DNA from: a virus
Strand: one strand, 5' to 3'
DNA length: 64,000 bases
Virus record (IMG/VR): IMGVR_UViG_3300045020_000106
Span: 1-64,000 of that record
In this document: positions 22,166 through 64,000 of the stretch, in pieces
How the letters are laid out: each line of letters begins with the position of its first letter
Numbering within the stretch: position 1 is the first letter of the stretch
Program-made: the position numbers and the translations under genes
Notes under the pieces: generated by a model
Databases searched by the model: none
Told to the model about the DNA's origin: nothing
What the model saw: only the letters and a program-made list of their open reading frames with translations

Positions 22166-23860
22166 ATGCCGAAACAAACCCTAAGCTCGAACGATGCCCG
22201 CTCTGCCCTCCTCCGCGGCATCAATGCAGTCGCGGACCCGGTAAAGACCACACTGGGTCCGCGCGGCCGCAACGTGATGCTGGAAGATGTCATCCAGCCC
22301 AAATCGACGCGAGATGGAGTCACAGTCGCAAAGTTCGCGTCGAGTCTTGCCGACCCATTCGAGAACATGGGAGCACTGCTGGCCCGGGAAGTTGCGGACG
22401 CGGCTGTCGTGGAAGCTGGCGACGGGACCACTACGGCCACAGTGATCTTTCAAGCCATTGTCACGGCGGGAATGAAAGCCATCCAGGAAGGCGCGGAACC
22501 CCTGCAATTGGCCGATGGGATTCGTGCGGCGGCCGAGGCGTGCGCCAAATCTGTAGAGCAAATGGCGACCCCTGCCACAGATGAGTTGGTCCAGCAATGC
22601 GCCATCATCTCAACGCATGGCGATGTTGAGTTGGGATCGATTATCGCGAAGGCAACCTGCCGAGTAGGCGCAACTGGCGTCCTGGAACTTCAAGAATCAC
22701 GCGATGAGTCGACCACGATCGAGCATCTTGAGGGATTCTACTTTGAACGTGGCTGGCGTGGGCCGAATGGATCGAACCACTTCTTTGTGAATGACAAGTC
22801 TGGGCAGAAGTGCGTCTTGAAGAACCCGTTTATTCTAATCTCCGAGCGTGTCATCGTCGGTGGGGCGCGCGGCATTGCCGGGGACCACCTGTGGAATATC
22901 CTCGAAGCCTGTGTGAAAGCTCGGCGCCCACTGCTGATCATTGCTGACGACTTGATTGGGGATGCCTACAACCTGTTCACGGCTAATATCACTGCCGGCG
23001 GATTGGCGGGGATTGGCGGATGCTTCGTGAAACTGCCAGGGTTCGGTGATCATCGCATGGAGGCGATCAAGGATCTGGCGATCGCCGTGGGAGCCAGACG
23101 GGTTCATTCGATGGCGTCGACGCGTGGGGACGATGTTCTATCGTCGTTCAGCTTGGACGACCTGGGAAATTGCAAACAAGCCGTTGTTTCACCCATGCGC
23201 ACGGTTCTGATCGAAGGCGCCGCGTCCGGCAATGCTCTTGCAAACCGCATTGCGCAATTATCCAAACAGCAGTTTGACGCCGCACATCCCATGGAGAAAG
23301 AACAACTTGAGCATCGCATCGCTCGTTTAACGGGAGGCGTCGCGGTATTGCGCGTGGGCGGGTATTCCGAGCCGGCCATGCTGGAAAAGAAGGCTCTGGC
23401 GGAAGATGCGATTCATGCCTGCCGTGGCGCGTTGCAGGAGGGAGTAGTAGCAGGTGGAGGGGTGGCGCTGTTGAGAGCGGCAAAAGATTGCGATGGAGAA
23501 CTGTGGGGAAGGACGGATATAACCGACGTTAGCTATTACACATTGGGACAGGCGTTACTGCTAAATGGCATCCAGGAGCCCGCCAAGCAAATCATGCGAA
23601 ACGCCGGGAAGAACGAGGAAACCATCGCCTCGGTGATCTTAGCTGCAATAAACCAGCCCAATCGGACACACGGCTACAATTCCGCAACTGGTGAATTTGG
23701 CGACCTGATGAGAATGGGCATCGTCGACCCCTGCAAAGTCGTCACAACCGCACTACGAAAAGCCGCATCCGTGGCAGCTCTTACCCTGACAACCGAGGTT
23801 CTGATCACGGAGATTCCGCAGCCCAAGAATCAGGCGCCTATGCCTCAGCCGATGTACTGA
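22166..23860 (+). CDS. groEL: GroEL-type group I chaperonin
   Basis: 564 aa, full length for GroEL. Visible signatures: TLGPRGRNVM, RDGVTVAK, EAGDGTTTATV (nucleotide phosphate site, catalytic Asp), PGFGDHRMEAIKDLAI (apical/intermediate), AEDAIHACRGA with the ATPase Asp, and EGVVAGGGVALLRA. The usual Gly-Gly-Met tail is replaced by a Pro/Gln-rich end. It forms double rings with GroES to fold proteins. Phage versions are known from several giant and podo/myophages and are thought to fold capsid or other large virion proteins. Sequence drift in the apical domain suggests an independent phage lineage. Confidence 0.95.
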   Translation: MPKQTLSSNDARSALLRGINAVADPVKTTLGPRGRNVMLEDVIQPKSTRDGVTVAKFASSLADPFENMGALLAREVADAAVVEAGDGTTTATVIFQAIVTAGMKAIQEGAEPLQLADGIRAAAEACAKSVEQMATPATDELVQQCAIISTHGDVELGSIIAKATCRVGATGVLELQESRDESTTIEHLEGFYFERGWRGPNGSNHFFVNDKSGQKCVLKNPFILISERVIVGGARGIAGDHLWNILEACVKARRPLLIIADDLIGDAYNLFTANITAGGLAGIGGCFVKLPGFGDHRMEAIKDLAIAVGARRVHSMASTRGDDVLSSFSLDDLGNCKQAVVSPMRTVLIEGAASGNALANRIAQLSKQQFDAAHPMEKEQLEHRIARLTGGVAVLRVGGYSEPAMLEKKALAEDAIHACRGALQEGVVAGGGVALLRAAKDCDGELWGRTDITDVSYYTLGQALLLNGIQEPAKQIMRNAGKNEETIASVILAAINQPNRTHGYNSATGEFGDLMRMGIVDPCKVVTTALRKAASVAALTLTTEVLITEIPQPKNQAPMPQPMY

Positions 23861-39983: not shown

Positions 39984-40178
39984 ATGGCTTGCGCGACTCT
40001 TCAACCCCGCTGCTTGGTCTGTGGGCACTACGGCCACAGACCGGGCAAACGTTGTCCCTTGAACAACCTCGTCGACACCCGCAAGGTCGTATCGGCGAAA
40101 GAATTATTTCCGCACAATCCCGATCTGGCGGCCATGCTAGATCGGATGAGAAAGTCATGGACGCCACAGTTCGCATAG
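39984..40178 (+). CDS. Small zinc-knuckle protein, 64 aa
   Basis: CLVCGHYGHRPGKRC is a C-x2-C-x4-H-x5-C zinc-knuckle-like motif, usually nucleic-acid binding. Poor ribosome site, but only 3 nt after the previous stop. Unknown role. Confidence 0.55.
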   Translation: MACATLQPRCLVCGHYGHRPGKRCPLNNLVDTRKVVSAKELFPHNPDLAAMLDRMRKSWTPQFA

Positions 40179-47597: not shown

Positions 47598-47614
47598 ATT
47601 AGATGAGGTTGCCT

Positions 47615-48262
47615 ATGTGGGATTCGGAAGACGTTAAACAGTTGTGGCAAAACCCGGAGTACAGGAAGAAGCAAGTAGAAGTTGATAAAGAAAGAAAACG
47701 CAAAGCTTCAATTGCATTAAAGAAGCACTGGGCTGATCCAGAGAATCGTGCACGTCGTATAGCGGTGATGACATCTCCACATGTACAACGTAGACAAGCT
47801 GCTGCGATGGCGATCCGTTCAAAGGAGCTATGGAAAGATCCGACGTACCGAGCCGCGCAGGGCGCTCACCGTTCGGCATTCGCCAAAACAAGAAGTGGGA
47901 TAACGGCGCCAGGATTCAAGCACGGTCTGTCGCGCACGCCTGAATACCGTGCTTATCATCAAGCCAAGGCGCGGTGTACCAAGATAGATCACCAACATTA
48001 TTCCGAGTACGGCATGCGCGGTATCAAGTTCCTTTTTGCCTCTTTCGAGCAGTTTATTGCTCACATAGGTATGCGACCATCCGCAAAGCATTCGCTCGAC
48101 AGAATCAACAACGACGGACATTACGAAATTGGTAATGTCGCTTGGCGGACGGCGACCGAGCAAGTTATCAATCGCCGAAAAGCGAATAGCAACTGCCGTG
48201 CATGCGGCAAGCTTCTATCGTGTTCCTGTATGGAACCAGAATACGGCTTATCGGCCTGCTGA
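47615..48262 (+). CDS. HNH homing endonuclease (free-standing)
   Basis: 215 aa; the start at 47615 follows GATGAGG. The N-terminal basic repeats (EYRKKQ..., ALKKHWADPENRARRIAV, RSKELWKDPTYR) are NUMOD-like DNA-binding motifs found in homing nucleases. The core AYHQAKARCTKIDHQHYSEY, then HSLDRINNDGHYEIGNVAWR, is the H-x-x-D-R-I-x-N-D-G-H-Y-x-x-G-N-x-R/W-W signature of an HNH subgroup. A C-terminal C-x2-C...C-x-C zinc site follows. It is inserted between the capsid gene and the terminator that probably once closed the capsid operon. The closest intact capsid allele is its likely target. Confidence 0.85.
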   Translation: MWDSEDVKQLWQNPEYRKKQVEVDKERKRKASIALKKHWADPENRARRIAVMTSPHVQRRQAAAMAIRSKELWKDPTYRAAQGAHRSAFAKTRSGITAPGFKHGLSRTPEYRAYHQAKARCTKIDHQHYSEYGMRGIKFLFASFEQFIAHIGMRPSAKHSLDRINNDGHYEIGNVAWRTATEQVINRRKANSNCRACGKLLSCSCMEPEYGLSAC

Positions 48263-56446: not shown

Positions 56447-56928
56447 GAACCCGTCTGAGGGAGATGCGGCCAGCCGATGTACCTGTAGTAATGGATCGCC
56501 TCGCCGAGCAAAATGCGCGCGACAAGACCAGTTACACCCTGCCACAGATATTCGACGAGCAGGGTCACAGGCTGGCACGAATCGCGCTCGCCCTCGTCGC
56601 CGTAGATGACGAGGGAGTTGTTCAACAAGGGCATATCTGGGAGAAGACCCTGGAGCAGACCAGTTACGGGATCAGCGCGAAATCGACTGTCTGTTCCATG
56701 CGGGAGCAGTATGCGATTTTTTATATTCTCAACTCCCGTGGATATGAAGATTTTCATCTCTTCGTGCCGAAGGAGCGCGTGGAGGATATGCAGCATGGTC
56801 TCGAAACGATTTATGGGTTGAGCGCCACAGGGTTAACGCACTTTTACCGCCGGCTGGACCCCGCTGAGAACGCGGCATTGCAGGAGTTTTATAAACGCCA
56901 GTTGGAAAAAGAAGGAGTTAGCCAATGA
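56443..56928 (+). CDS. GNAT-like phage protein, 161 aa
   Basis: GTG start with overlap. An N-terminal R-L-R-E-M-R-P-A-D-V-P helix resembles the start of GNAT acetyltransferases (M-R-x-A-x-x-x-D). Later strand-helix order (ALALVAVDDEGVVQQGHIWE, YAIFYILNSRGYEDFHLFVP) fits a degenerate GNAT fold, but the Q/R-x-x-G-x-G/A acetyl-CoA motif is not visible. GNAT-like proteins without activity occur beside ejection genes in podophages. Tentative. Confidence 0.45.
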   Translation: MRTRLREMRPADVPVVMDRLAEQNARDKTSYTLPQIFDEQGHRLARIALALVAVDDEGVVQQGHIWEKTLEQTSYGISAKSTVCSMREQYAIFYILNSRGYEDFHLFVPKERVEDMQHGLETIYGLSATGLTHFYRRLDPAENAALQEFYKRQLEKEGVSQ

Positions 56929-57776
56929 GCCGCGGCCAACAGGGTACAGTGTTTTCTACAGGTGCTTCTCAGAACAAAAACCTCAATAACCTGTCCAATA
57001 GTTCCTTCAACGCCGCGCAAACTGACCTAGGTCAAACCGAAGGCGACATCAACTCCTTTGGCGATGAACTCTCGCAATTCAAAGCCAACAACCCCTACAC
57101 CGCAGGGGGAGCATTTCAAACCGCCTCGAATCAGGAAGCGGCAGATACCTCAGCGGCTACCGCAGAGCGAACCGGACAGATGCTGCAAAGCGCGGCGGTG
57201 CGCGGCGGCCAGAATCCCAATGCCGCTATTCAGGCCACGGAAGATACGGCGATTGCCGGACAACGCGAACAGGCAGGCGAAGAAGCGGAAGCCACAAAAC
57301 AACGCTTGGGATTGGACACCGGATACGGTCAGGAAGTCCTGGGAGCCACCGGCCAGAAAGAGCAGATGCAGCAGGCTCTCACGAACGAGCAGGCAGGCAT
57401 TGCGGGCAAAGAGGGGGAACTCGCCGAGGGCGCATTGAGCGAAGAAGAGAAAGCCGCACAAACCCCAAGCTTCCTGGATGAGTTAGGGCAGGGCGCGATC
57501 AATGCGGGCGTAGCGTTTGCGGGAGGAGCCGGGAAGGCGATTGGCTGTTGGATCGCGGCTGCCTGCTTTGACGGTTGGGACGATCCCCGCACAATCATGG
57601 TTCGCGGGTATATCTTTGGACCATTTGCACAGTCGTGGATTGGCGCGAAGATTTCTCAAGCCTATCTACGCTACGGCGAGCGCATCGCCGCAAGAATAAC
57701 TCACTCCTCGTCACTCAAATGGCTAATGACCAAAGTGTGTAACATCGCGCTAAAGCAGGCGGTGAAGCGTGGCTAA
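56925..57776 (+). CDS. Ejection/internal virion protein with CFI-box-like C-terminus, 283 aa
   Basis: ATGA overlap. Long Gln/Ala/Gly/Thr-rich helical region (residues 1-195) with a hydrophobic Gly/Ala segment (GQGAINAGVAFAGGAGKAIG), typical of small ejection proteins. Residues about 206-275 (CWIAAACFDGWDDPRTIMVR, GYIFGPFAQSWIGAKISQAY) follow the C-[FW]-I-A-x-A-x-[YF]-G/D...R...G...Y...G...A-x-x-I pattern of CFI-box domains. These are found on diverse proteins and of unknown function. Part of the internal-virion gene set. Confidence 0.6.
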   Translation: MSRGQQGTVFSTGASQNKNLNNLSNSSFNAAQTDLGQTEGDINSFGDELSQFKANNPYTAGGAFQTASNQEAADTSAATAERTGQMLQSAAVRGGQNPNAAIQATEDTAIAGQREQAGEEAEATKQRLGLDTGYGQEVLGATGQKEQMQQALTNEQAGIAGKEGELAEGALSEEEKAAQTPSFLDELGQGAINAGVAFAGGAGKAIGCWIAAACFDGWDDPRTIMVRGYIFGPFAQSWIGAKISQAYLRYGERIAARITHSSSLKWLMTKVCNIALKQAVKRG

Positions 57777-59382
57777 CGAATATAAAACCGGTCTCGACGA
57801 TCAGGACGAACTCAGTCAATTTCCCAGCGCTTCCTCGCCCCTGACGGCGATGGGGATTGATCCAGATGAAGTCGCCAAAAATCCTGACACTCTGAATAAG
57901 TTGAGTGGCGTGTATCCACTGGCGTATAACGCCCCGAAGCAGACCGAATCCCCAGACAAGCAACAGGCGGGCATGGCTGGCGGAGCGGGCGCCACTCCTA
58001 CGACTGATCCAACCGAAACTCCTGAGTCCTATGGCGTGGAAGGGTTGGGGATGCTGAAGAAGAACCTCGAATCCGCCACGGAAGCGGCCAATGAAGTTCC
58101 CACCAAAGAGCCGGATAAGATTGCCCAACTCACCACCGAGCGCGAGAAGTTAGCCAAACCGGCACAACGCTTCGACCCCACAACAGGCAAGCAGCTTACT
58201 CAGACCCAAGAGTATGACCCCGACAAAGGGCAGATGGTCACCATCAACCCCAAGGAAGGGACTGGCGGGAAGGTATGGCGCGGGATTCGTGGAGGACTGC
58301 AAGGTCTGGCGATCGGCGGAATTCCGGGCGCGGTCACCGGCGCGCTGTCTCCTGAAAAAGTTGGCGGCACAGCCTACAGCGCCCCAAGCAAAGCCTACCA
58401 GAAGGGTGAAGAACGCCGCGAACAAGCTTTGGGCGCCACAGATGAAGAATTGAAACAGGCAAGAGAAAGCTGGAAACAAGCGGTCGACGCTTCGAAAGCG
58501 AAAGCGGGAGAGTATCGTTCAAACGCAGCAATCGGGAAAGATATCACTACTGGCGCAACAGGGTTAATCAATGCGGAGAACAAACCCGCACCCGAGGACA
58601 AAGCCCAACTCTCGCAAAAACTATGGGAACAACGCCGTCAGCAACTAACGGACCCCTCTCTCGCGAAACTCTCTCCACTGCAAAAAGCACTTTATATGGC
58701 GAATGGGAAAGTCCCTGACCCACGGGAACCCAATGAAGCCGATGTGCAGGCCGCAAATATGGCGAGGGCTCTGACGATCTGGAAAGGGAGTCATGGAGGG
58801 AAATCCCCGGCTACCGTGGAAGAGTTTAACGAGGTCATGCAATCGGCGAAAGGCGAACTTGGAAAAGGGAAGGCTGCGGGCCAGCCTACCCCGCAGCAGT
58901 CCAAAGCCATCTCGGACAAGAAGGCTGCGGCCATTGAGAAAGCTAATCGAGACTTCGCCAACGCCGACGGTGGAAAAGATGCGCTGGCGGAGTATCAACG
59001 CCAACTGCAGGAAGCGCAAAACGCTTACGAAGAAGACATTGGCGACATGGGCCAAGGAACCACACACCAAGTCGTTACCGTGGATAACAAGGGGCAAGTT
59101 ACATGGACGCCGCAAGCAACTCCAGCACCACAGGCACCAGTGGGCGGTCCATCCCCGCAGGTCGCACAGCCTGCGACTCCACAACCGACGACCCCCCAAC
59201 CCACACAACCGCAGCAACCACCACGCAAGAATCAACCACTGGTTAAGCCGGGGAGTGAAATCAGTTTTGATGGGAAACCCACAAAAGTCACTGAAGTTCG
59301 GCGGAATCCTCAGACCGACGAGTACGCCTATAACATCGGCGGAAAGTGGTATACCGACAAAGAGATGAAACCCTCCAAGTAA
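57769..59382 (+). CDS. Ejection-type internal virion protein, 537 aa
   Basis: GTG start overlapping the previous gene. Mostly polar, Lys/Glu/Gln/Pro-rich, with one hydrophobic Gly-rich segment (GLQGLAIGGIPGAVTGALS) near residue 180 that could insert in a membrane. Long helices (DKKAAAIEKANRDFANADGG) and a Pro/Gln linker precede a small C-terminal domain (PTKVTEVRRNPQTDEYAYNI). Matches the general character of podovirus DNA-ejection proteins. Function inferred from place and composition. Confidence 0.6.
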   Translation: MANEYKTGLDDQDELSQFPSASSPLTAMGIDPDEVAKNPDTLNKLSGVYPLAYNAPKQTESPDKQQAGMAGGAGATPTTDPTETPESYGVEGLGMLKKNLESATEAANEVPTKEPDKIAQLTTEREKLAKPAQRFDPTTGKQLTQTQEYDPDKGQMVTINPKEGTGGKVWRGIRGGLQGLAIGGIPGAVTGALSPEKVGGTAYSAPSKAYQKGEERREQALGATDEELKQARESWKQAVDASKAKAGEYRSNAAIGKDITTGATGLINAENKPAPEDKAQLSQKLWEQRRQQLTDPSLAKLSPLQKALYMANGKVPDPREPNEADVQAANMARALTIWKGSHGGKSPATVEEFNEVMQSAKGELGKGKAAGQPTPQQSKAISDKKAAAIEKANRDFANADGGKDALAEYQRQLQEAQNAYEEDIGDMGQGTTHQVVTVDNKGQVTWTPQATPAPQAPVGGPSPQVAQPATPQPTTPQPTQPQQPPRKNQPLVKPGSEISFDGKPTKVTEVRRNPQTDEYAYNIGGKWYTDKEMKPSK

Positions 59383-59385
59383 TCC

Positions 59386-62300
59386 ATGCCCACCGTTGCC
59401 GAGCCGGACACTACCGATGAATCCGTCAGCGTCCGGAGTGCGCCTCCGTCTGGATTTACGGAGTCCCTATCAGCATCTGAGACCGGCGACCGCAGCAAAC
59501 CTCCCACTGGCTTCAGTGAAGTCCACGATGCCTCCGCTCCGCCTCCAGGCTTTACCGAAGATGTAGGGGCGCAACAGAACGTCGATCAGGCGCTCGCAGG
59601 CGCACCCAAGCCACAGGTAAACATGCAACCCGTGGCTGTGACATCGGGCCGTCCCGTGGGTAGTCCCGCAGCTGTGGCACCCGCTCCCGGAACGGAACTG
59701 GAGCATTTTGGTGCGCTCGTGCCGCAAGCCGCTGTCCCGGCCCTGCAGTCCATTCAGACACATGTCAATGAGCCTCTGAATAAAGCCGCGCAGGCTGGCG
59801 CGGAATTTGGCAAAGAGGTTGGTCAAGAAGCCGTCACCGGAGCGACGATTCTTTCGCACCCCGCAGAATCGCTCAGCGCGGCCCTGTCATCGCCTTACGG
59901 ACCAAAGCCAGCCACAGAAACGCCAGAGCAGACCGCCCAGCGCGAGCACCCGGTAGCAATGGTAATTGCGAGTGGCGTGGGTGAAGCAGCTGGCGGCGCT
60001 GCGGCCGATCCGCGCAACTGGCCCTTCTTTGCTTCTGGCGGAGCCCGCCCGGTCCTGCAGAAAATCATCAGCTTAGGGTTCAGCGGCATGATGGCCAAAG
60101 ATGCCACGGACGCCGCTGTCGACCTGCACGCCAATTGGGATAAATACACACCACAGCAACGTGCGGAGATTGCGGCGAAGGGCGGCATTTCCGGCGTGAT
60201 GGCGGCGATGGGTGCCTATCACGCGGCCACATCCAAGCTTCCGCCTCCAGCCCCACTCCGCCCCGAGCCGGAAAGCCTTACGGCGCTTCATAACGAAGCG
60301 CGAGACATCGTCAACTCGGCTGGACTGGAATATCCCTACAACCCGACGCCGGAAGATCTGAAAACAAGCTATCGCCAATTCCAGGCGCGTGCCGCGAACG
60401 CCGCGGAAGCCGATCAGCCAGCGATGAAGGAAAAGGCCAATCGACTCCAGGAAATCTATGACAAGTTGAGCAAGGGAGCGCCAACCGAGAAGCCAGTTCA
60501 TCACACATCGAACGACGTTAAGGCTCTGCGAGAAAGCGCCGAAGCACAATCCGGCAAGATTGGCGATGCCGTCGCGAAAGCCGCGGAACCCGTAGAGGGC
60601 GCAAAAGTCGAAGCCGTCCGCGATGCGAAAGACTCCGACCGGATCGAAGATAAAGCCAAACGGCAGAACGTGCAACCCTCACAGATCGGGGATATTGCCG
60701 GCGCCAAGGTCTCGGTCCCAGATCAGGAAGCGGCGAATGAAGTCCTGAAAAATCTGCACCAAGAAATGCCGGTGGAATCGGCAAATGGGACGGTTACGGG
60801 TGAGCCGCAGAATAACGCCGTGCGGCAGACGCAGGCCATTGTCGACACCGAGGCACCACCAGAGGAGCCGATAAAGCATGCTGAGATCATGTTGCAGACC
60901 CCAGAGATGCACGCCGCAACCGATCGCACCCACGACCAATATCGCGAGGCGCAAGAACTTCGTGCTCAGGGTAAAGAAGCCGAAGCCCAGGCCATCGAGT
61001 CTGAAATTGCAAAGACACACGAAGCGGCAGAGCAAGCCGCTAGATCACGCCAAGGAGAATCCGATGCCCTTTCGCAGCGAGGCCCAGCAACGGTTCATGG
61101 AGGCGCACAAAAAGAAAATGGCGCGTCAGGGCGTGAACCTGAAAGAGTGGGAGCAGGCAACGGACTTCAAGAAACTCCCACCCCGAGCGCCCAAGCCGCC
61201 GAAAAAGAAAAGCTCCCCGACCACCTAGGAGATAAACGCGTTCAGGTGAAAGACGCGAAAACCGGGGAATGGAAAGATGGAACGGTAATCGCCGATGTCA
61301 TGCGCTCCGGGCCGACGACGCGCGGCGAAGCAACCCTACGAAAACTTCGCGGGCAATTTGATGATGGTGGAAGATTCGATGTAGGCCCAGAGAGTATCCG
61401 CCTTCCCCAAAGTAAGCGGGTAGGCGTCGACTTCGATGGAACGCTGGTCAAAGAAAATGCCGACGGTTCAATAGGCGAACCAATCCCAGAGCGTATTGCC
61501 AGTCTGAAGCAAAGAATTGCGGCAGGGGATGATGTCATCATCGAAAGCCACAGAGCAAAAGACCCGCAGCAAATCGCGAATATTCAAGAGGTACTGATCT
61601 CCCAAGGCCTTCCAAGGCTCCCCGTCACTGCAAAGAAAACAGCCGCCGGAGAATTGATTGACGACAAGCAGGGGAAGACACCGGGAGTCGATGTCGACCG
61701 TGTAGCCACAAATGCGAATGCTCCACTCCCAGATAAACCCTTTGCCCTCTCAGAGCATGAAAAAGAACTCTCCAAACCCTATGGTCCTCCCAAAGCAGAT
61801 TTTGGAGGAAGAGTCCCGGATGAATCGTTAGGACTCAATCCGAATCCGGCAGAAGATTTCGGCAACAAAGCCCGCGCCGAAGTGGAGCGGAGAATGGGCG
61901 GAGCCTTACCACGAGGAGCCACAGAGCGGCGCGTAGAACCCCAGACCGACGATGAGAAACTAAAAGCCGCTTTCGCCGGATCACGTAGTGTAGGGAACAA
62001 AGAAGGGGGCTTATTCACTCAAGCAAAGTCTGAGTTATTCCCTGGTAAGCGGGAGTTATCCAATGACGAAATTGCGAAAGTTGAGACGCGCGCGCGCGAA
62101 CTCAGCTCACAAAAGACAGCAACGTCTGAAAAGACGAGTCAACCTGTGGGAGGTTCTGATGCTGGAAAAGAGCGTGGGAGTCCAGCCAAGGAAACGCGCA
62201 AAGAAGTAGCTCCCGGCAAAGTCGGAGAGATGAAAGTATCCGACCTTCGAGTCGCACCGAATAAGTTCCAGTATAAGTTAGGCACGGATGCCGCTGGCAC

Positions 62301-64000
62301 TTCCACTCTTCTCAAGGAAGCCAGGGCGTTTAATCCCGATCTCGCAGGGACAATATCGGTATGGAAAGACCCATCCGACGGCAAGACCTATGTCGTGAAC
62401 GGCCACCATCGCTATGAGCTGGCAGTTCGTAAAGGACAAGATGAAATCGCCGTAAGGCATGTCGTTGCCGATGACGCGGAAACTGCGCGAGCGATTGGAG
62501 CGATGCAGAATATCGCCGAAGGCCGCGGCACTGCGGTGGATGCTGCAAAGTTCTTACGCGATTCCGGCATGACACTCGCAGACTTTCAGGCAAAGGGTAT
62601 TTCATTGGGCGAGGCCACGGCGGCGAAAGGCCTGGCGCTCGCCAATCTTGACGATTCGCTTTTCAATAAAGTAGTACAGGGCGATCTGCGCGAAGGCCGC
62701 GCGGTCGCCATCGGTGAAGCGACGAAAGACCCGGCAGAGCAGAAAGCTATTCTCTCGCTGGTGGAAAAGAAAGAATCGCGAGGCACAAGAGTCAGCGACG
62801 ACACGCTCTCGGAACTCATTCGCTTGGTCAAGGGAAGCGAACAGACTACCGAGACCACGCAAAACCTATTCGGAACGCAGGAGATTAGTCGCTCGCTGGC
62901 ACTGGAGAAAGCAGAAATATCCGCGCACATCAAGCAGCAATTGGCAAAGGATAAGAAACTGTTCGGCTTTGTCGCCAAGGCGGATCGCGCAACCGAGTTG
63001 GAACGCGGCGGCAACAAGATTGATGTAGGCAAATCGAAGGAAATTTCTACTGGCGCGGCTCAGGCCGAAGAGGTTTATAATAAGCTTAGTGAGCGCGGAG
63101 GTCCGATTGCATCCATCCTCGACGAAAGCGCCAGAAAACTCGCAGAGGGTGACAGCCCCGCGACCGTTAAATCGGAAGCCTACACCCGCGTCCGCTCCGA
63201 AATATCCAAAACTCTCGGGCCACCAGAAGGAACAAGTGCTGGACGATCTGAAGAAGCACGCGAAGAAAACCTAGAACCTACCCTCCCCGGCATGGAGCAC
63301 GTTCCCACCGAACGCGCCGAAGCCAACGCGGAGCATCAAGGCAAAGAACTCACCGAAAAACTCACTGAGCCGCCCAAGTCCATCGAAGCCAAAGCGGGCG
63401 AGATTGAGCAAAAATCCCCGCTATTCCGCGACACGGAAGCCAACCCACAGAAAGGCTTATTCGGCTCCGATCTTCTCTCCGGGGAATCTGGCAGCTTTGA
63501 ACCAGGCAAGGTAGGCGAAGCGGCAAAGGCAGTCGGCGATTATATCGGTGGCGTCCGTCACAGCACAGAGATCGCTCGTGATCTTCAGCGCAGCCTTGAA
63601 ACCTTAGATACACAAAAACAGGCGGACATCCTCGAAGGCATCAACGTGATGAAGGTAATGAAGTCGGCAGGATTAAAGCATGCCGACGATGAAGCCATCT
63701 ACCATCACCTCGAAGATCCGAATGCCAAGCTTTCAGACGATCAGCAGAAGTGGCTCGACGATATCGTTACGCCGCTCCAGAAAATGAACACGGAGTTTTA
63801 TGAGGAATTAAAAAAGGGCGGGGTGCCCATCGAGAACTATGTACATCGAGTCGTGCAGGGGAAGGGCGGGGTTCTCGACCGCATTGCGCAAGGGGCGAAG
63901 GCAATGGGCTCACGCGCAACCCTCTCGAAATCCGCGCCGCAAACCAAGCAGCGTACCTATATGGCGCTGGATAATGACAAAGGTGAACGCCAGGTAGTCT
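59386..64000 (+). CDS. Giant polyvalent-type injected protein (3' end beyond window)
   Basis: Open for 1538 codons to the window edge, starting MPTVAEPDTTDESVSVRSAP 3 nt after the previous stop. In order: a disordered, Ala/Pro/Thr-rich N-terminus with two hydrophobic Gly/Ala stretches; coiled coils (residues 290-600); a disordered stretch (560-615) where another gene is nested. An HAD-like motif VGVDFDGTLVKE (Asp682/Asp684) comes next. Then a DdrB/ParB-like domain (residues about 945-1100) with YVVNGHHRYELAV (NGHHR from residue 1005) and NIAEGRGTAVDAAKFL, and finally a long helical region. Giant multi-domain proteins with ParB-like cores are called polyvalent proteins. They are thought to be injected with phage DNA to counter host defences. 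Confidence 0.75.
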   Translation, partial: MPTVAEPDTTDESVSVRSAPPSGFTESLSASETGDRSKPPTGFSEVHDASAPPPGFTEDVGAQQNVDQALAGAPKPQVNMQPVAVTSGRPVGSPAAVAPAPGTELEHFGALVPQAAVPALQSIQTHVNEPLNKAAQAGAEFGKEVGQEAVTGATILSHPAESLSAALSSPYGPKPATETPEQTAQREHPVAMVIASGVGEAAGGAAADPRNWPFFASGGARPVLQKIISLGFSGMMAKDATDAAVDLHANWDKYTPQQRAEIAAKGGISGVMAAMGAYHAATSKLPPPAPLRPEPESLTALHNEARDIVNSAGLEYPYNPTPEDLKTSYRQFQARAANAAEADQPAMKEKANRLQEIYDKLSKGAPTEKPVHHTSNDVKALRESAEAQSGKIGDAVAKAAEPVEGAKVEAVRDAKDSDRIEDKAKRQNVQPSQIGDIAGAKVSVPDQEAANEVLKNLHQEMPVESANGTVTGEPQNNAVRQTQAIVDTEAPPEEPIKHAEIMLQTPEMHAATDRTHDQYREAQELRAQGKEAEAQAIESEIAKTHEAAEQAARSRQGESDALSQRGPATVHGGAQKENGASGREPERVGAGNGLQETPTPSAQAAEKEKLPDHLGDKRVQVKDAKTGEWKDGTVIADVMRSGPTTRGEATLRKLRGQFDDGGRFDVGPESIRLPQSKRVGVDFDGTLVKENADGSIGEPIPERIASLKQRIAAGDDVIIESHRAKDPQQIANIQEVLISQGLPRLPVTAKKTAAGELIDDKQGKTPGVDVDRVATNANAPLPDKPFALSEHEKELSKPYGPPKADFGGRVPDESLGLNPNPAEDFGNKARAEVERRMGGALPRGATERRVEPQTDDEKLKAAFAGSRSVGNKEGGLFTQAKSELFPGKRELSNDEIAKVETRARELSSQKTATSEKTSQPVGGSDAGKERGSPAKETRKEVAPGKVGEMKVSDLRVAPNKFQYKLGTDAAGTSTLLKEARAFNPDLAGTISVWKDPSDGKTYVVNGHHRYELAVRKGQDEIAVRHVVADDAETARAIGAMQNIAEGRGTAVDAAKFLRDSGMTLADFQAKGISLGEATAAKGLALANLDDSLFNKVVQGDLREGRAVAIGEATKDPAEQKAILSLVEKKESRGTRVSDDTLSELIRLVKGSEQTTETTQNLFGTQEISRSLALEKAEISAHIKQQLAKDKKLFGFVAKADRATELERGGNKIDVGKSKEISTGAAQAEEVYNKLSERGGPIASILDESARKLAEGDSPATVKSEAYTRVRSEISKTLGPPEGTSAGRSEEAREENLEPTLPGMEHVPTERAEANAEHQGKELTEKLTEPPKSIEAKAGEIEQKSPLFRDTEANPQKGLFGSDLLSGESGSFEPGKVGEAAKAVGDYIGGVRHSTEIARDLQRSLETLDTQKQADILEGINVMKVMKSAGLKHADDEAIYHHLEDPNAKLSDDQQKWLDDIVTPLQKMNTEFYEELKKGGVPIENYVHRVVQGKGGVLDRIAQGAKAMGSRATLSKSAPQTKQRTYMALDNDKGERQVV
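61064..61228 (+). CDS. Nested small gene, frame +1 inside the giant ORF
   Basis: 54 aa, MPFRSEAQQRFMEAHKKKMA then ARQGVNLKEWEQATDFKKLP, Lys/Pro-rich end. The ATG is preceded by CCAAGGAGAATCCG, an excellent ribosome site at ideal spacing, inside a frame that also codes for the giant protein. The start P-F-[RK]-S-E-A-Q-[RQ]-R-[FY]-M is typical of a family of short basic phage/prophage proteins. The host frame here is disordered and tolerant of overlap. Two real overlapping genes is the most economical reading. Confidence 0.75.
   Translation: MPFRSEAQQRFMEAHKKKMARQGVNLKEWEQATDFKKLPPRAPKPPKKKSSPTT

Follow-up and report, generated by a model that had tools for sequence, protein, structure and literature searches.

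Large polyvalent proteins with RelA/SpoT, ParB-type, 2H, GGDEF, and ART domains have been described, and alarmone production has been proposed for this group (PMC5512222). They include RelA/SpoT-bearing members from prophages of Helicobacter and of spirochaetes (Iyer, Burroughs, Anand, de Souza, and Aravind 2017, PMC5512222). Among ejected phage proteins, T7 gp16 has an N-terminal transglycosylase (PMC8954989), and N4 gp50 combines a membrane-inserting N-terminus, an enzyme, and a large C-terminal domain, arranged as beads on a string (PMC12633501). The gene studied here lies at the end of a 64,000-nucleotide window, i.e. the whole stretch of DNA that we analysed, taken from the IMG/VR virus record IMGVR_UViG_3300045020_000106. 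Its product resembles the polyvalent proteins in being large and multidomain, in being encoded beside late virion genes, and in combining RelA/SpoT and ParB-superfamily domains (PMC5512222). The main feature is a complete RelA/SpoT-type domain (residues 372–565), which is absent from a preliminary description of this DNA.

The giant gene begins with an ATG at 59386 on the plus strand and stays open to the window end at 64000, i.e. for 1538 codons. In the 70,286-bp virus record that contains the window, the frame runs on to a stop at 65871 and encodes 2161 aa, in agreement with the preliminary description, which had given 1538 aa as a lower bound. The view taken there of a giant polyvalent protein whose gene closes the structural operon also holds, given that several enzyme-type domains stand in one ORF and that its C-terminal module is shared with classic payload proteins (Table 1). 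Domain homologs occur in dozens of phages, and pN is low relative to pS (0.12–0.33 vs 0.63–0.80 in the SAS, HAD, ParB-like, and C-terminal regions), as expected under purifying selection; on these sequence comparisons, a chance open frame is excluded and we take the ORF to be real. Isolated phages were searched at both the nucleotide and the protein level with positions 40000–64000, the SAS region, the C-terminus, and the candidates for capsid and portal, and no match was returned. The N-terminal region has no family match and is kept in four related loci (L011, L008, L040, and L042). The most hydrophobic stretches of the giant protein are residues 189–207, which form the best 19-residue window of that region, and 1910–1928.

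Table 1. Features of the giant gene and its upstream neighbours, with positions given in the window unless assigned to the longer record.
Feature	Residues	Position	Strand	Remarks
283-aa ORF, candidate outer-membrane-type ejection protein		56925..57776	+	co-conserved; role suggested by position alone
537-aa ORF, candidate periplasmic-tunnel-type ejection protein		57769..59382	+	co-conserved; role suggested by position alone
Giant polyvalent protein gene	2161 aa	59386..64000, to 65871 in record	+	
N-terminal region	1–290	59386..60255	+	Pro/Ala-rich start, then Gly/Ala-rich hydrophobic stretches
J-domain-like segment	296–370	60271..60495	+	HPD motif lost
SAS (RelA/SpoT) domain	372–565	60499..61080	+	K415, K423, D436, E500 kept
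HAD-like phosphatase domain	675–790	61408..61755	+	D682-x-D684, S721, D759-D760
ParB-like module	941–1290	62206..63255	+	NGHHR 1005, QNIAEGRGT 1041
Start of the ~800-aa helical C-terminal module	1362–2161	63469..64000 (rest: record 64001–65868)	+	

Pfam RelA_SpoT (PF04607) matches residues 415–521 of the giant protein with 29.7 bits in the genome search and 28.5 bits when the domain is taken alone (cut-off 27), and with 24.6 and 23.9 bits, slightly below that cut-off, in full-length scans. The same profile matches all seven SAS homologs (best E = 4.8e-8). Five other giant phage proteins contain close homologs (L118, L042, L044, L047, and L122; 63–70% identity). More distant homologs occur in L045 and L050 and, encoded by an ORF of its own, in L038. 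This ORF (L038:15361-16851; 497 aa, 26%) lies downstream of a giant gene with a ParB module. An AlphaFold2 model built from seven aligned sequences (pLDDT 79.8, pTM 0.72) returns B. subtilis SAS1 (5dec) as the top Foldseek match (E = 6e-5), and each of the 23 highest-ranked rows is a small alarmone synthetase or belongs to that family. The model superposes on 5dec with a VIA Z of 15.1 (rmsd 2.8, 175 of 191 residues), and on Tas1 and CapRel with Z of 12.5 and 11.3, respectively. As such, the domain forms a complete small-alarmone-synthetase fold.

Aligning the domain with SAS1 and E. coli RelA reveals a conserved donor side and a remodelled acceptor side. Specifically, the metal/ATP residues K415, K423, D436 (in the DIAG motif), and E500 are kept in all aligned members, the last of these within AEIMLQT where the reference has AEIQIRT. 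The acceptor loop (478–483), on a strand placed there by the model, reads AVRQTQ instead of GYRSYH, so that the stacking Tyr is replaced by Val and the His by Gln. The replaced loop is itself conserved across the clade as NAVRQ, with NGVQQ in L122. The dN/dS of the SAS domain is about 0.10–0.13 where dS is unsaturated, and pN is ~0.20 against a pS of at least 0.68. The conserved loop and the low pN relative to pS together indicate that the domain is maintained, by strong purifying selection. The syn3 signature is SxH in guanosine enzymes and GxN in adenosine enzymes (PMC12226406); here it is QxQ, which matches neither.

A more far-reaching reading, to which we give a probability of roughly 0.3, is that these proteins represent a virion-delivered SAS clade with a new acceptor site, i.e. 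an AVRQ-type loop for GYxSxH, that pyrophosphorylates a substrate other than GDP/GTP or ATP, such as tRNA or a metabolite specific to the phage or the host, with the HAD domain acting in cis. Catalysis by the SAS on a non-standard acceptor, taken alone, is likewise a tentative proposal. The altered acceptor loop may be read as a sign of a non-catalytic role, with the domain catalytically dead or binding nucleotides only. It is possible, without being probable, that the SAS of the same injected carrier is a pseudo-enzyme with the fold retained, which through binding of ATP or an alarmone would serve as a sensor, decoy, or sponge instead of a synthetase. The G-loop aromatic residue and His are absent from all six close members, while the distant relatives L045, L050, and L038 keep an aromatic (GFHSYT/GFRSHT), and the ATP-motif Ser has become Arg throughout the close group, both of which suit such a role. 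By contrast, the strong conservation of the four metal/ATP residues and of the NAVRQ loop argues against it, as does the strong purifying selection, and a replacement that is itself conserved suggests a function that changed rather than one that was lost.

A further reading is that the product of the SAS is ordinary (p)ppGpp or (p)ppApp, through which the stringent response would be triggered or mimicked as infection begins. Such a role has been suggested for the RelA/SpoT domains of other polyvalent proteins (PMC5512222), and alarmone synthesis has been shown for MuF-linked Apk2 domains (PMC12226406). The fold and the catalytic residues would be compatible with this activity, and so would the HD_4 (alarmone-hydrolase-like) genes seen in two of the seven SAS-bearing records (L132, G003:18500-19900; L133, G005:16900-18300; E = 2.6e-6 and 5.4e-6, both under the curated cut-off). 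HD_4 genes are absent from the 30 other relatives, at least two of which (L050 and L038) carry a divergent SAS. The chance of finding both among the seven is 21/666, or ~0.03, a post hoc value based on small numbers, and we regard the link between HD_4 and SAS as suggestive. In the record studied here, no HD_4 hydrolase or immunity-type gene was found. Given the QxQ signature and the missing stacking Tyr, we consider synthesis of an ordinary alarmone unlikely.

The preliminary description had pointed to a HAD-like element at DFDGT and a DdrB/ParB-like element at NGHHR. The former is borne out, as D682 and D684 lie inside a HAD-like domain (PHROG 1238, E = 1.1e-11, residues 670–771) whose motifs are intact, i.e. 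D682/D684 (DxDGT), S721 (motif II), and D759/D760 (acidic motif IV), and most of these residues are also kept in L118 and L042. For the latter, the general ParB-like identity has moderate support from sequence matches, while the DdrB label had to be dropped: P1 DdrB could not be aligned, and the ddrB-ParB profile (PF18763) remained without a match at a threshold as loose as E ≤ 10. The module that contains NGHHR (1005–1009) is a conserved block of ~350 aa present in at least 359 viral loci, and NGHHR or NGHNR was found in 94 of the 96 ORFs examined. It matches a ParB-like PHROG (E = 0.0045) and the PDB ParB structure 6t1f (E = 0.0014), with the second match fading when a broader ParB profile is used. 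HTH_ParB is matched in two of nine relatives (E = 0.0023), and Pfam ParB_N (PF02195) does not match it. Prochlorococcus P-SCSP1 phages also carry the ParB module. Ahead of the SAS domain, a DnaJ identity was rejected for the window copy, in which Pfam DnaJ has no match at this place and the HPD motif is lost, and we refer to the segment as J-like only; its counterpart in L042 keeps LHPD and is matched weakly by Pfam DnaJ (E = 0.0014). A 60-residue linker between the ParB-like and C-terminal modules (63286–63462; residues 1301–1359, EPTLPGMEHVP...QKGLFG) is 49–86% conserved among otherwise dissimilar giant proteins.

Further enzymes had been considered possible beyond the window. The remainder of the 2161-aa protein holds no protease, helicase, or methylase, and the C-terminus, a single and mostly helical module, matches no catalytic family. 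This module of ~800 residues was found in 27 viral loci, where it stands behind very different payloads, and the region before the match ranges from 185 to 3316 aa in the loci that include the protein start. Payloads include 2H, histidine phosphatase, GGDEF, ART-PolyVal, N6-methylase/helicase, InPase, and SLT domains, some of them matching above curated cut-offs; the result is a set of about 27 sister proteins with payloads centred on nucleotide chemistry. The 2H phosphoesterase domains are found in sister proteins L008, L010, L011, L013, L015, L016, L020, L025, and L122, and several have weak matches to Acb1 (anti-CBASS), which makes them candidate injected counter-signalling enzymes. Complete or partial GGDEF domains precede the C-terminal module in L015, L016, L017, L020, and L025, and in four of these five proteins GGDEF also precedes the ParB-like module.

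Module composition differs even between close relatives. For example, L118 (terminase large subunit 92% identical over 453 aa) shares the SAS and HAD domains and the C-terminus but lacks the ParB module, while L042 (terminase large subunit 78% identical) shares the order SAS, HAD, ParB and has a different C-terminus. Since L118 lacks ParB and L042 has another C-terminus, both the ends and the middle of the giant protein have evidently been exchanged between near relatives. Such exchange of carrier and payload supports the view of an injected cargo under arms-race selection.

A model of the C-terminal module, for which the L118 homolog was taken together with 17 relatives (pLDDT 77.7, pTM 0.72), resembles predicted viral proteins annotated as large polyvalent, LPD38, ART-PolyVal, or RelA/SpoT. 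Foldseek against the PDB gave nothing significant (best E = 0.39, unrelated proteins), and a second look at the PDB placed the PhiM1 ejectosome and N4 vRNAP gp50 in the top rows with Z of 5.3 and 5.2, below the trusted level. The LPD38 profile did not match the giant protein, nor did it match the control. A portal label for the protein, from PHROG 21 (E = 2.4e-65), was judged misleading, as its match is confined to the ParB-like module (residues 930–1252 on positions 1002–1325 of a 1362-position model). That the giant protein is a large structural or assembly protein of a portal-like head, which is not injected and whose enzyme-looking domains are structural relics, would agree with the head and packaging annotation of this PHROG but is very improbable, given the limited reach of the match, the low-ranked and nonsignificant portal row of the C-terminal model, the clearly enzymatic payloads of the sister proteins, and a free exchange of modules unlike that of a structural core.

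The genomic setting is consistent with delivery by the virion. The giant gene follows a run of genes that is co-conserved in related phages and precedes the terminase large subunit (PHROG 979, E = 1.5e-30), with a 233-aa ORF in between. Upstream, the 283-aa and 537-aa ORFs keep their order beside the giant gene in related phages, and neither has a significant database match. The preliminary description had called these two ORFs ejection proteins; their co-conservation with the giant gene fits that role without proving it. In P-SCSP1g and uvMED podoviruses, a giant ORF with the ParB module comes after the capsid, tail tubular A/B, and further ORFs, and the relative L018 has an N-terminal SLT (transglycosylase) domain, as does T7 gp16. 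From position and fold hints, we infer virion location and injection as the best explanation, and the giant protein as a whole is probably an injected payload carrier. Elsewhere in the window, an HNH endonuclease ORF (47603–48262, plus strand; PHROG 3377, E = 1.5e-24), possibly a homing endonuclease, is located within the structural gene run, and a 564-aa ORF (22166–23860, plus strand), whose start reads by eye as a GroEL-type chaperonin, has homologs in two related phage contigs, L120 and L023 (57% and 39%, respectively).

Under our main reading, the giant protein would be stored in the capsid and ejected with the two smaller ejection proteins, ahead of or together with the DNA. Packaging, ejection, and membrane anchoring would fall to the hydrophobic N-terminal region and the last ~800 residues, whereas the exchangeable domains in the middle would act in the cytoplasm at a stage when no phage gene is yet expressed. 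The payload of this phage would comprise the pyrophosphokinase-fold SAS, the HAD phosphatase-fold, and the ParB-like domains. The catalysis, acceptor, and host target that we propose are as follows: the SAS would move pyrophosphate from ATP to an acceptor other than the usual GDP/GTP or ATP, this reaction would block or reprogram a host process, and the HAD domain might act on the phosphorylated product of this reaction or on a related one. If true, the protein would be an injected nucleotide-chemistry weapon, active ahead of phage gene expression. In any case, what had been a vague giant protein becomes a testable set of modules, with a complete SAS fold, intact donor-site residues, and a non-canonical but conserved acceptor loop.

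Compared with the polyvalent set (PMC5512222), the sister payloads 2H, GGDEF, ART, InPase, and methylase-helicase all fall within the known repertoire, while the main text of that paper makes no mention of HAD, DnaJ, or histidine-phosphatase domains. The giant protein differs from this set in having no zincin HExxH in the 2161 aa scanned (zincins are frequent there, not universal), no match to Pfam DdrB-ParB or Pfam LPD, and a remodelled SAS acceptor loop. In contrast to the prophage-borne polyvalent proteins, no prophage relatives of it were found in a prophage and host search of 84,980 genomes with the C-terminus.

The SAS domain shares with SAS1/RelQ and SAS2/RelP the whole fold (Z 15.1, 175 residues), the K/K/D/E residues, and the DIAG motif, and differs from them in its 14% identity, in being embedded in a giant protein, in having AVRQTQ for GYRSYH, and in having Arg for the ATP-motif Ser. 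A RelA/SpoT fold delivered by a phage head or secretion protein is known from MuF Apk2 (PMC12226406), T6SS Tas1/Apk1, and exported synthetases (PMC12691689), a delivery that would be paralleled here. Unlike Apk2 and Tas1, the giant protein has no MuF or PAAR match, its syn3 is not GxN, and no adjacent immunity genes were found.

With regard to ejection proteins, the position of the giant ORF in the podoviruses with the ParB module corresponds to that of T7 gp15/gp16, and, like T7 gp16 and N4 gp50, the giant protein would be the largest ejection protein, accompanied by two smaller ones. It shares the general layout of N4 gp50, with domains as beads on a string, and its C-terminal module has a weak fold match to gp50 residues 2714–3493, with Z only 5.2–5.3 for gp50 and the PhiM1 ejectosome. 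Unlike T7 gp16 and N4 gp50, it has no RNA polymerase, and it has no significant sequence match to them. We found no description of a clade with a remodelled acceptor site, or of module exchange between such close relatives, in the literature cited here. RelA/SpoT domains in polyvalent proteins are already known, while the SAS clade reported here and its acceptor loop are new.
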